A program made the translations under genes and the position numbers. This document shows, in pieces, positions 19,945 to 59,490 of a stretch of 64,000 bases of DNA. The stretch is from Rhodospirillales bacterium (GTDB lineage Bacteria > Pseudomonadota > Alphaproteobacteria > Rhodospirillales > Magnetovibrionaceae). The stretch is from contig JANLGW010000074.1 in assembly GCA_024653965.1 (NCBI GenBank), positions 1 through 64,000 of the forward strand, in the 5' to 3' direction. Under the pieces are notes generated by a model, which was not told the DNA's origin, ran no database searches, and saw only the letters and a program-made list of their open reading frames with translations. Each line of letters opens with the position of its first letter. Positions within the stretch are counted from its first letter, which is position 1.

Positions 19945-20002
19945 GAGGTTTTCCTTTCGTACCCTCCGTACAGACGCGTCGCTTCCACGCGAAGCGTCCA
20001 CA

Positions 20003-20195
20003 AACACGGGCAGGTCTCCTGGCTCACGGATCGCTGTTTCCTTCCGCCTTCCCAAGATACAAGACCTCAGTGGCTCAATGGAAGAAAACTACCGTTCACA
20101 GTTGCGGGGGCAGCCACAGATCGGGACCCGTCGAGGTCGTCCCTACCGTGTTCCCTTTTCATCCAGCAGGCTTAAGCCTGCTAGGAACCCGTGCT
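20003..20195 (-). ncRNA. Cobalamin riboswitch upstream of cbiM
   Basis: Read on the minus strand, it shows the conserved cobalamin aptamer: GGTTCC near the 5' end, GGGAACACGGT, GCTGCCCCCGCAACTGT, the B12 box GCCACTG, GGGAAGGC and the closing GAGCCAGGAGACCTGCC. It lies 59 bases upstream of the cbiM start. When B12 is plentiful it should lower expression of the transporter. Confidence 0.95.
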
Positions 20196-20253
20196 TTTTG
20201 TTTATGCCAGAGTCGGGGCGATTAGGCAAGGCCCGCAAAGGAAACCGGGCGGC

Positions 20254-55732: not shown

Positions 55733-56398
55733 TTAAGCCACCCGCACCAACGACTGGTTCAAAGTGAAGTGGGTTTCGATGTGATCGATGGTGGCGTGGA
55801 TGCTTTCGCCGATATCGTACTTGGACGTATCGATGATCAAATCCGGATTGGCCGGCGCCTCAAAAGGAGCGCTGATGCCGGTGAAGTTGGGGATCAAGCC
55901 CGCGCGCGCGCGTTTGTAAAGCCCCTTGGGGTCGCGCGCCTCGCACACGTCCAGCCCAGCATGGACATGGACTTCATGAAAGCCCTCGCCGATGATGGCG
56001 CGAGCCTGATCGCGGTCGGCCTGATAAGGCGAGATAAACGCCGTCACCACCAGCGAACCCGATTGCGCAAAAAGCGCCGCGACCTCGGCGATGCGGCGCA
56101 AGTTCTCGTGACGATCTTCGGGGCTGAAGCCTAAGTCGGAATTCAGGCCCGCGCGCACGTTGTCGCCATCCAACACAAACGCCTGATAACCCAAACGATG
56201 CAAGGTGTGTTCGACGCCCAACGCCACGGTGCTTTTGCCCGCGCCCGACAAGCCTGTCAGCCACAACACGCCGCCACGATGGCCGGTGCGTTGCCAATGG
56301 TCTTCTGGACGTACCGGATGTTCGACGGTGTAGATATTGCGCGCTTCGGCTTCGGCCTTCGCGGCAGCTTCGCGATTAACTTGATTGATGTTGCTCAT
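55733..56398 (-). CDS. cysC: Adenylylsulfate kinase CysC
   Basis: A 221-residue kinase with Walker A GLSGAGKST near 49, DGDNVRAGLNSDLGFS and FISPYQADRDQAR. It phosphorylates APS to PAPS. The N-terminal 30 residues are a variable extension. GGAGG precedes the ATG. It follows cysH by 30 bases. No ATP sulfurylase gene lies in the window, so its substrate comes from genes elsewhere. Confidence 0.95.
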   Translation of the reverse strand: MSNINQVNREAAAKAEAEARNIYTVEHPVRPEDHWQRTGHRGGVLWLTGLSGAGKSTVALGVEHTLHRLGYQAFVLDGDNVRAGLNSDLGFSPEDRHENLRRIAEVAALFAQSGSLVVTAFISPYQADRDQARAIIGEGFHEVHVHAGLDVCEARDPKGLYKRARAGLIPNFTGISAPFEAPANPDLIIDTSKYDIGESIHATIDHIETHFTLNQSLVRVA

Positions 56399-56428: not shown

Positions 56429-57133
56429 TCATAAAAAGGTGTGAATGCCGCATTCGGTTTTTTCATGGCCAGCCCAACGGCCCGAACGCACGCCCTTGCT
56501 GGGGCAAGCCTTATGCGTGCACGGCTGGCAACCGATGGACGGATAGCCTGCCTCGGCCAGGGGGTGACGCGGCAAGTTGCGCGAGCGAAGTGCGACTTCA
56601 ATATCGTCGGCGCTGAAATGCGCCAACGGATTCACCTTCACATGCGCCCCCGTAACTTCGACGACATCCAAATGCTGACGCCCATCACCGTGATGACGTT
56701 TACGCCCGGTGATCAGGATGTCGAACCCCGCCACCGTCATGGCATACGGCATGACCTTGCGGCCCTGGCAGCATGCATCGGGATTGCTTTGATAGAGCAG
56801 GCCGTCCGGGTCCATATTGGCCACCAGACTTTCCGCCGGCCTGATCACACGCACGTCCAACAGATCCAAGTGCTTCGTCAACGCTTCACGATACGCGATG
56901 CTTTCAGCAAACAGACGCCCGGTATCGACGGTGATGATCGGGATGGCCGGATTGATTCTCGCCACCATATCCAACAACACGGCGCTTTCCGTGCCGAATG
57001 ACGACGACACCGCAACTTTGAGCGAGCGCTCCTTCAACACCGCTTTCAGCAACGCCTCCCCGCTCAGCGCTTTCCAAGCGCTCAGCAGTTCGCGCCCTTT
57101 AGGGTGCTTGAGAATGGTAGAATTGTCGCTCAT
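56429..57133 (-). CDS. cysH: APS/PAPS reductase CysH, iron-sulfur type
   Basis: A 234-residue reductase. A cysteine pair CC (DACCQGRKVMP) and CxxC (GCQPCTH) mark the [4Fe-4S] cluster of APS-type reductases, and ECGIH at the C-terminus holds the catalytic cysteine. Such enzymes use APS and often also PAPS. The ATG at 57133 overlaps the stop of the sulfite reductase gene (ATGA), so translation is coupled. Confidence 0.93.
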   Translation of the reverse strand: MSDNSTILKHPKGRELLSAWKALSGEALLKAVLKERSLKVAVSSSFGTESAVLLDMVARINPAIPIITVDTGRLFAESIAYREALTKHLDLLDVRVIRPAESLVANMDPDGLLYQSNPDACCQGRKVMPYAMTVAGFDILITGRKRHHGDGRQHLDVVEVTGAHVKVNPLAHFSADDIEVALRSRNLPRHPLAEAGYPSIGCQPCTHKACPSKGVRSGRWAGHEKTECGIHTFL

Positions 57134-59145
57134 TGCGCCGCTCCCGCAAACGTTTCGTTGTTCAACTTCTGGCTCAAATAACCCGGCACGGAAGTCAGGA
57201 TGCGTTCTACTTCCTGGTCTGCCGCCACCTGCCAAGCCGCCAATGCGGGCAAAGCCAACTCGACTTGATCCGTTTTCGCCGCCCGCACCGCGTCATCCAA
57301 TACTGCCAACAGGCTGGCATCGTGAGACCACTGCGCGCGCACCGTGAGTTCGCGCTCACCCACACTATCGGCGCTATTCACGCCACCAATCGCCAACAGA
57401 CGTTGCAGCGGAGCATCCAGCGCTTGTTCCAAATGCACCGCCACTTCGGCCTGACGGTTCGCCCGTGCAGCCCGCGCCGCATCCAAACGCGCAACACGCG
57501 CCAGATCGGCCAAGTGCTCGGCCACCACCGCCGCCGCCGCGCATTCGCCGGTAGAGGTTGCGGGCGGAACGAACGCCACATCGGAACCGACGTCGAAGAT
57601 CAACTCGCCTGAGTCTTGGTCCAATCCTTCCAAGCTCGGCTGAACAATCTTGGCAATCGCCTCGTCGCCTAAACGCTCGGCCCAGGTCCGCACGCTTTCA
57701 CCTTTAAGGCGCTCTTCCTTCAACGCTTTGAGCAACAGACGCAGCGCGTCCTTCACCCGGTGCGCCGGAATAACGGGGCCTAAAATGCCGTGCGCATCGG
57801 GGCTGCCGCCCAGGTGCAATTGATAATGCGGCACCGGATTGCCATCGATTTTCTTGGCCAAGCCATGAAACCCGATATCGGCAATGTGGTGATGGCCGCA
57901 CGAATTGTGGCAACCGGAAACACGCAGCGTGACCTCTGGCAAACCCGCGAACTCACCACTCGCCGCCAGCAGACTTCCCGCCAGCGCATGACTGTCGGTA
58001 ATGCCGATCGAGCACGTCGAAGACCCAGGGCATGACACCAGCTTGGCCAGCGCATGTACCCGCCCGCTGGCGTCTAACCCTAATTCACGCACGCCGTTCA
58101 CAAAATCCTCGACCGCCCGTTCGGGAAGGTTCTGCGCGATGATGTTTTGCGTGCGCGTCAGGCGAATCTCGCTGGCCCCGGCCTGCTCGGCCAAGTTCGC
58201 CAAACCTTCAAACTGCGCCGAAGAAAGCCAGCCCAACGGAATCTCGATCTCGATGGACTTGCGTCCTTCTGCTTTATAAGCGGACCAATCCAATGCCTTC
58301 CATGCGGGACCATCCAATCCTTCCAGGGCGTTGAATGCTTCATGCACGCGGGCGACAAAATTGGCGGCGCCCAAGCGTTTGATTAAAAACTTAATGCGCG
58401 CACGGTTTTTGTTGGTGCGGCTTGATTGCTCTTGATGCAGGCGCGCAATCGCCTCCTGTACACGAGGTAAGTCGTGCCCAGCCACAAAATCAAACACCTC
58501 GATGGCATGCGCGGGCGCAATGCCCAAGCCCCCACCGGCCAGCACGCGAAAGCCTTTTTCGCCATTTTTCTCGACCGCGATGAACGCCAAATCATCGATC
58601 CCGCCCAGGCCGCAATCCTTGGCGCAACCCGAAACCGACGTTTTAAACTTGCGCGGCATGTGTTGGGTCAGCGGATGGCGCAGCCATGCTTCAGTCAACT
58701 GCCCGGCGACGGTGGCCGCATCGGTCAACTGCTCGCCGCACACGCCCGCATGGGGGCACGCGACGATGGCGCGGAACGTGGCTCCCGATGCTTCGCGCGT
58801 CGTCACGCCACCCTCGTGCAAATCGGACAACAAACCAACTAGGTTCGTTTGGGGCACAAAATAAAACTGCACGCCCTGGCGCGTGGTGACATGAATATCG
58901 CCGCCCGCATTGTTGGCATTGGCCGTGGCGATGGCGCGGGCCTGATCGAACGTCAGCCGTCCGCCGGGCACCTTGGCGCGGATCATGTGCTGACCCGGTT
59001 GACGCTGTTCGTAAATGCCAAAGCGCAGACGGAAAGTTTTCCACCGATCCGCAAACCAACGCCCGCTGACATAATCGTCCAATCCGGCGCTAAACTCACG
59101 CAGATCGCCGTCGGTGCTAAAAACAGTGTTGATCGAATTCGTCAT
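57130..59145 (-). CDS. cysI: Sulfite reductase haemoprotein with a C-terminal extension
   Basis: A 671-residue sirohaem reductase. The body shows both ferredoxin-like repeats and the cluster-sirohaem cysteines CPGSSTC and SGCHNSCGHHH in the second half; a second cysteine pattern SGCAKDCG near 172 belongs to the duplicated first half. From about residue 545 an extension of about 125 residues follows (rich in Ala, Leu, Arg; helical), not part of the standard fold. It reduces sulfite to sulfide. AAGGAA precedes the ATG. First gene of the operon. Confidence 0.9.
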   Translation of the reverse strand: MTNSINTVFSTDGDLREFSAGLDDYVSGRWFADRWKTFRLRFGIYEQRQPGQHMIRAKVPGGRLTFDQARAIATANANNAGGDIHVTTRQGVQFYFVPQTNLVGLLSDLHEGGVTTREASGATFRAIVACPHAGVCGEQLTDAATVAGQLTEAWLRHPLTQHMPRKFKTSVSGCAKDCGLGGIDDLAFIAVEKNGEKGFRVLAGGGLGIAPAHAIEVFDFVAGHDLPRVQEAIARLHQEQSSRTNKNRARIKFLIKRLGAANFVARVHEAFNALEGLDGPAWKALDWSAYKAEGRKSIEIEIPLGWLSSAQFEGLANLAEQAGASEIRLTRTQNIIAQNLPERAVEDFVNGVRELGLDASGRVHALAKLVSCPGSSTCSIGITDSHALAGSLLAASGEFAGLPEVTLRVSGCHNSCGHHHIADIGFHGLAKKIDGNPVPHYQLHLGGSPDAHGILGPVIPAHRVKDALRLLLKALKEERLKGESVRTWAERLGDEAIAKIVQPSLEGLDQDSGELIFDVGSDVAFVPPATSTGECAAAAVVAEHLADLARVARLDAARAARANRQAEVAVHLEQALDAPLQRLLAIGGVNSADSVGERELTVRAQWSHDASLLAVLDDAVRAAKTDQVELALPALAAWQVAADQEVERILTSVPGYLSQKLNNETFAGAAQ

Positions 59146-59164
59146 CTTGCGTTCCTTAGCTCAT

Positions 59165-59201
59165 GGCGCATGTGCGCCTTGCATGGGCTGCTTTTGCAGC
59201 C
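59165..59201 (-). other. Two hairpins between the leader ORF and cysI
   Basis: GGCTGC-TTTT-GCAGCC (59186-59201) and GGCGCA-TG-TGCGCC (59165-59178) lie between the stop of the tri-cysteine ORF and the cysI ribosome site. Neither has a T run. They could act in translation coupling or attenuation, or shape the ribosome site. Confidence 0.55.
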
Positions 59202-59242: not shown

Positions 59243-59314
59243 CTAACGGCAACAACACATCCGGACAGATAAAAAACGGCGCATTCGCGATTTTAAAGTG
59301 TGTTCGGTACGCAT
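59243..59314 (-). CDS. Leader peptide ending Met-Cys-Cys-Cys-Arg
   Basis: A 23-codon ORF with GGAGG (59324-59328) nine bases before ATG. It ends VRMCCCR-stop with three consecutive cysteine codons (TGT TGT TGC). It lies between the SAM-II riboswitch and cysI. Short cysteine-tract leader ORFs before sulfur assimilation operons are known from other bacteria and stall or pause ribosomes when Cys-tRNA is scarce; that role is inferred here. The peptide itself is too short to have a recognisable fold. Confidence 0.72.
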   Translation of the reverse strand: MRTEHTLKSRMRRFLSVRMCCCR

Positions 59315-59343
59315 GGTCTCCGCCTCCGGTCTCAATACTGGAC

Positions 59344-59361
59344 CCGCGGAACGCTCCGCGG
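59344..59361 (-). other. Hairpin 3' of the SAM-II aptamer
   Basis: CCGCGGA-GCGT-TCCGCGG, a perfect 7-base-pair stem just after the aptamer. The right arm with its neighbours (59341-59349) is also exactly complementary to the 5' end of the aptamer (59412-59420, nine bases), so the two pairings exclude each other: the layout of a switch. Confidence 0.7.
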
Positions 59362-59420
59362 CGCTTTAGCCTCGATTTGTTAACGCGGTCGCAAGCTGCC
59401 CCCTCAAATCACCGCGGGTC
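59362..59420 (-). ncRNA. SAM-II riboswitch upstream of the sulfate assimilation operon
   Basis: Read on the minus strand, CGCGGTGATTTGA opens the aptamer, GGGGGCAGCTTGC follows, ACCGCG closes P1, and GTTAACAAATCGAGGCTAAAG completes it. GATTTG pairs with CAAATC, and the conserved GCTAAAG end is present. All hallmarks of the SAM-II class are met. When SAM is plentiful it should lower expression of the operon. Confidence 0.9.
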
Positions 59421-59461
59421 TTTCATGCCAACAGACATGACCGAACCATTCCTTGACGCCA

Positions 59462-59490
59462 ATAAAACACAAATTATGTGTTGGTGTCAA
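59462..59490 (-). promoter_or_regulatory. Promoter with a palindrome in its spacer
   Basis: Minus strand: TTGACA (59490-59485), a 17-base spacer and TTTTAT (59467-59462). Between them AACACA-N5-TGTGTT (59466-59482) is a perfect six-base inverted repeat. The start should fall near 59455, ahead of the riboswitch. Operator for an unidentified regulator. Confidence 0.65.

Follow-up and report, generated by a model that had tools for sequence, protein, structure and literature searches.

The 5' leader of the cysI-cysH-cysC operon of a Rhodospirillales bacterium (contig JANLGW010000074.1; the 64,000 nucleotides analyzed are here called the window) is probably a two-input sulfur switch that reads both SAM and cysteine. 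Most likely, a ribosome admitted at a SAM-II-gated site reads the cysteine supply during translation of a leader peptide. The composite leader is real and recurrent, and we infer its function from sequence comparison. The original prediction, that the operon reads SAM by an aptamer and cysteine by a ribosome, appears to be correct for the most part and to apply more widely than proposed; it has strong comparative support beyond the window, although the arrangement is variable and not fixed at cysI itself. We also lean, with chances put somewhat above even, toward a broader reading in which the regulated ORF is itself the sensor: a previously undescribed SAM-II subclass, with an extra hairpin (P3), would gate a leader that reads cysteine, and perhaps methionine, as a single-RNA logic gate across the Alphaproteobacteria.

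The operon and all of its leader elements are on the minus strand, and the leader contains, in order, a promoter-like sequence, the SAM-II aptamer, a short ORF, two hairpins, and cysI. The probable promoter, TTGACA-17-TTTTAT (59462 to 59490), was read by eye and received no score in a promoter consensus scan; a similar GTGTTTTAT is found at the matching place upstream of the Magnetovibrio orthologues. The predicted aptamer was recovered as a SAM_alpha (RF00521) match at 59425 to 59346, with 45 bits against a gathering threshold of 36. Its predicted limits (59362 to 59420) hold for the core but not for the 3' end, as the element runs on to 59337 because the additional hairpin P3 (59361 to 59344) follows the core. 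The variant aptamer including P3 (59337 to 59420) is supported by the RF00521 score, by a score of 92 bits with our model R2, and by covariation in P1 and P3. The P1 stem, CGCGGU/ACCGCG, with the loop that provides a pseudoknot strand, occupies 59384 to 59416 (59416 to 59411 paired with 59389 to 59384), and P3, CCGCGGA-GCGT-TCCGCGG (59344 to 59361), lies within the 3' strand of P2 and shows covariation. The post-P3 strand GUCC (59340 to 59343) is predicted to extend P2 by pairing with the loop Gs at 59402 to 59400, on the basis of a permutation test on 73 distinct sites; in the window copy this extension is weakly formed.

The remaining leader elements could all be read in the sequence as originally described. 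The Shine-Dalgarno sequence GGAGG (59323 to 59327) is separated by 8 nt from the ATG of the leader ORF MRTEHTLKSRMRRFLSVRMCCCR (59243 to 59314), which has 23 codons plus a stop, reads ATG CGT ACC ... ATG TGT TGT TGC CGT TAG, and has counterparts at homologous positions elsewhere. Its three Cys codons, TGT TGT TGC, are at 59249 to 59257, and such a C-terminal Cys cluster recurs at other sites; the peptide itself has no Pfam or NCBIfam match. Two hairpins are predicted between the leader ORF and cysI, namely, GGCTGC-AAAA-GCAGCC (59186 to 59201) in the spacer and GGCGC-ACAT-GCGCC (59165 to 59178) adjoining the cysI ribosome site, whose Shine-Dalgarno sequence is AAGGAA (59152 to 59157). Counterparts of both stable hairpins (59165 to 59201) are predicted in the Magnetovibrio orthologues. 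The operon genes encode a cysI-like sulfite reductase hemoprotein of 671 amino acids (57130 to 59145, ATG at 59145; Pfam NIR_SIR and NIR_SIR_ferr), a CysH-type PAPS/APS reductase (56429 to 57136; PRK02090 above the cut-off and PF01507), and the APS kinase CysC (55733 to 56398; apsK TIGR00455 above the cut-off).

The aptamer represents a divergent form of SAM-II, often under the Rfam threshold, in which the covarying hairpin P3 is nested in the P2 pseudoknot strand. In the copies of the window's family and in many others (models R1 and R2), P3 begins directly after GCUAAAGCG. Across 96 distinct sequences, 98.1% of the P1 and P3 cells are paired, and there are 117 double-sided changes versus 25.5 ± 6.3 in shuffled data; the alignment was fitted to that structure, which favors it, and slid controls drop to 35 to 45%. 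As for membership in the SAM-II family (RF00521), the P1 stem and the AUUUG, GCUUGC, and GCUAAA core are present, and the P2 pseudoknot is found in a modified form with GC:GC pairs in all 13 aligned sequences. The complementarity of the P1 loop and the post-P3 strand at the 73 distinct sites is 10.95 versus 9.60 ± 0.22 (reached in 0 of 2,000 permutations, with kinship ignored). When the dominant GGGC/GCCC class is left out, it is 9.70 versus 8.46 ± 0.28 (again 0 of 2,000), and neighboring windows are flat. Since this complementarity exceeds that of permuted pairings, P3 is most simply seen as nested in the P2 3' strand. Locus L171, with 21.3 bits for RF00521, and several other relatives fall under the threshold, whereas L155, which bears a Cys leader, passes it with 36.8 bits. 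SAM-V or another Rfam family as the identity of the element was rejected for want of a match: no SAM-V match was obtained at E values up to 10 in L171 (1400 to 1680) or up to 0.1 in the window aptamer copy.

Other riboswitch elements were also encountered. A cobalamin riboswitch (114 bits) is located on the minus strand of the window at 19992 to 20207. Another contig of the source genome carries a second, canonical SAM-II (74.5 bits) upstream of an ORF starting with MTNTYDDKAKSWKPATKLVRGGL, which resembles the metZ-type proteins found after canonical SAM-II elsewhere. At 12 loci (L154, L164, L166, L175, L210, L213, L214, L217, L227, L243, L244, and L247), a second, weaker SAM-II is found ~120 to 150 nt upstream of the P3-type aptamer. 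The tandem aptamer and the Cys leader look like alternative additions, because nearly all of the tandem loci have a gene without a Cys leader. A further SAM-II form, GCGCCGATTTGA...AAATGCAGCTAAAGCG followed by the terminator-like stretch GCGGCGGTTTTTT, precedes metN-like genes (L115, L116, L125, L131, L132, L134, L135, L138, L141, and L142; the L134 gene is sulfite reductase-like).

A short first ORF with a Shine-Dalgarno sequence is present at 47 of the 85 parsed P3-type sites, and it typically starts 21 to 36 nt past P3. That the first ribosome site belongs to the leader ORF, as proposed for the window, thus has strong comparative support well beyond it. The near-constant position of the first start codon means that the aptamer would act on whichever ORF stands there. 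Cys is encoded by 35 of 44 nonredundant short ORFs; 27 of the 44 have two or more Cys codons, 15 a CC, and 7 a CCC, with examples including MTFTSRRFSPALIGAMRTCCCRT (L171), MTPMRKSILCCCR (L246), MPVTKTTAAPERSWRDMACNAACCCRR (L236), MTCCCP (L222), and MFFTSPVLLVEPPLSAGLSSLVMRCMCRCGLCCRA (L139). Compared with dinucleotide shuffles of these ORFs, Cys is enriched (93 in total versus 50.8 ± 5.9; z = 7.1), and so is internal Met (44 versus 16.2 ± 3.7; z = 7.5). The Met codons, as enriched as those for Cys, often directly precede the Cys cluster, and the Met supply might also be read. The last eight residues hold 72 Cys among 328 positions (22%), compared with 17 among 697 (2.4%) elsewhere, and TGT is used over TGC by 61 to 32. 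In aligned clusters, Cys columns changed in 2 of 21 cases, versus 63 of 156 for other columns (Fisher P = 0.007). As the Cys columns show no synonymous changes, constraint at the base level could contribute to their conservation.

Leaders with at least two Cys residues occur in 15 families of Alphaproteobacteria, as counted from family labels. Two extra family samples, a few sites of which repeat the first set, gave Cys in 46 of 46 short leaders and at least two Cys in 43. Canonical SAM-II controls treated by a like procedure had a Cys-bearing short ORF at 0 of 43 sites.

The genes that follow P3-type sites, named outside the window by eye from sequence resemblance, are mostly sulfur genes. 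Those placed directly after the aptamer are cysG, cysI, cysH, metX-like, metY/metZ-like, and sulfate-binding protein genes, whereas sites with a Cys leader precede cysI (in the window's family), metN, or a gene for an unnamed protein of 64 to 77 amino acids. The original view that SAM-II would be unusual before genes other than the metA type did not survive for the P3 variant, in which cysG, cysI, cysH, metN, and sulfate/sulfonate transport genes are not rare. The unnamed protein follows the leader at ~20 loci (including L130, L171, L172, L218, L226, L233, L236, L246, and L150), carries a motif like AFVIEVxGxxAGxxVxxxxGxRFFASD, and matches no Pfam or NCBIfam family above the cut-off.

The close relatives of the window copy are from Magnetovibrio and other Rhodospirillales metagenome-assembled genomes (MAGs). 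In five Magnetovibrio genomes (genus g4), cysI is likewise preceded by this aptamer form and by an ORF at the corresponding position (MTNLNTLFHAPMGRLTTSSQMHMCTMCICAAA, MMNMIQYSSFRMPVTGSNNALCCRLHCCM, MLNTRTPFQMPQGDIKEHPMNFLSSSLPSMCSAA, MTKILHTPHRQRPFRMPSSILDRCPQPSM, and MHTINPRSHFRMSISPEFALCK), with Cys near the C terminus in all. Three of the five (G011, G013, and G015) have a single Cys, G009 having three and G017 four. Conservation of the Cys codons holds class-wide and is weaker in this family (one to four Cys). Retention of the aptamer without the ORF, which the original prediction had named as evidence against itself, was seen in part of the set: G014 and G016, from another genus of the family, keep the aptamer and lack the leader ORF, their cysI start being 27 to 34 nt past P3, the usual position of a leader start. 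G001 to G003, of the same genus as the window, have neither aptamer nor ORF.

The proposed mechanism draws on the leader anatomy, covariation, near-constant spacing, the excess of Cys and Met codons, and the conservation of the Cys codons; SAM binding, translation, stalling, and coupling are its presumed steps. The P3-variant SAM-II, which lies ~30 nt upstream of the first start codon, would set ribosome loading there, and bound SAM would presumably reduce this loading. The first start codon would open the 23-codon leader peptide rather than cysI, and the loaded ribosomes would traverse the C-terminal Cys codon cluster and the Met before it. With scarce Cys-tRNA, they would slow or stall at the Cys codons, and stalling may then refold the ~95-nt spacer or alter its accessibility to Rho such that cysI is expressed.

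Several candidate forms of this last coupling received little or no support. Attenuation by an intrinsic terminator has a candidate in only 1 of 35 leaders and none in the window. The predicted hairpins at 59201 to 59165 leave the cysI Shine-Dalgarno sequence uncovered, and in the predicted folds none was seen to gate the cysI ribosome binding site. Modelled stalling of a ribosome at the Cys codons did not unmask that site in the window (0.36 versus 0.36); over the leaders, the mean opening is only slightly higher, 0.41 versus 0.385 for random blocks. A stop-straddling hairpin as a universal element was discarded: it occurs in a subset only and is absent from the window, and 79 of 2,000 permutations reach the observed mean. 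There is a C-rich, G-poor stretch 20 to 30 nt past the leader stop, which would fit Rho.

The leader ORF might instead serve translational coupling or standby, with ribosomes loading at the SAM-II site and reinitiating at cysI and the Cys codons being incidental. We consider this unlikely in view of the Cys and Met enrichment, the Cys conservation, and the ~95-nt gaps from stop to start, a distance that counts as long for reinitiation. Loci L159, L162, and L237 do have short ORFs without Cys at the leader position, as coupling would allow. There are also precedents: riboswitch-controlled reinitiation after a uORF is known for Mycobacterium tuberculosis ppe2 (PMC11260477), and in Sinorhizobium meliloti metA a Shine-Dalgarno sequence inside the riboswitch serves a start 74 nt away (PMC9373788). 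A simpler account makes SAM-II the sole regulator, with a leader ORF that is untranslated or has no role. It accords with G014 and G016, where the aptamer stands directly before cysI, but the near-constant position of the Shine-Dalgarno sequence and start, the Cys bias, and the absence of such ORFs at 43 canonical SAM-II sites make it the least credible reading, and a very improbable one.

The aptamer could also act with the opposite sign, as an ON switch for the leader. Ligand binding would then capture the post-P3 strand in P2 and free the Shine-Dalgarno sequence of the first ORF; SAM would license leader translation, and the operon would be shut only with SAM and Cys both plentiful. At several sites (L222, L171, and L236, read by eye), two partners are open to the post-P3 strand, namely, the P1 loop and the Shine-Dalgarno region. 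A role as an anti-Shine-Dalgarno strand was nevertheless rejected, as the pairing is not above permutation (275 of 2,000 and 1,656 of 2,000 permuted partners reach it), and an ON switch would be odd where cysG, cysI, or metY follows directly. We regard this sign as improbable and provisionally keep the expected one, in which bound SAM would lower ribosome loading.

Parts of the arrangement resemble known systems. The SAM-II riboswitch RF00521 was described by Corbino et al. in 2005 (PMC1273637) and studied at metA/metZ of S. meliloti, where it controls translation at a distance (PMC9373788). The element described here shares with it P1, the P2 pseudoknot, the AUUUG/GCUUGC/GCUAAA core, occurrence in Alphaproteobacteria, and association with sulfur genes, but it differs in having P3 in the P2 3' strand, in that many copies are under the gathering threshold, and in that the first ribosome site is often that of a Cys-rich leader ORF. 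SAM-V also has a SAM-II-like core and occurs together with SAM-II (PMC2704228), but no SAM-V match was found here in the searches given above. In the actinobacterial cys leaders (PMC1262725; Canestrari et al. 2020, cited in PMC9094748), a short ORF likewise carries consecutive Cys codons close to its stop and precedes sulfur assimilation genes, with no terminator found, but no riboswitch was reported there. The mycobacterial ORFs of Canestrari et al. are leaderless according to the title. In Rhodobacterales, uORFC-8-2 before cysS (PMC8632094) is also an alphaproteobacterial uORF with tandem Cys codons, but it has an intrinsic terminator, no SAM-II aptamer, and another downstream gene. The B12 riboswitch and uORF of M. 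tuberculosis (PMC11260477) likewise join a riboswitch to a translated uORF; the ligand is different, and the abstract of that report does not present the uORF as an amino-acid-sensing leader. No published composite of SAM-II and a Cys leader was found in the literature searched, most subscription literature being outside its scope.

The pairing of aptamer and leader in ~15 alphaproteobacterial families suggests a widespread two-input switch for SAM and cysteine. If this is true, a metabolite-binding riboswitch and a ribosome-stalling leader peptide would be joined in one conserved leader, integrating the end product (SAM) with the precursor amino acid (Cys), and the logic of such a riboswitch-plus-leader gate would become directly testable. 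The finding also points to a SAM-II subclass that is partly missed by Rfam and is linked to the unnamed protein of 64 to 77 amino acids encoded after many of the leaders.
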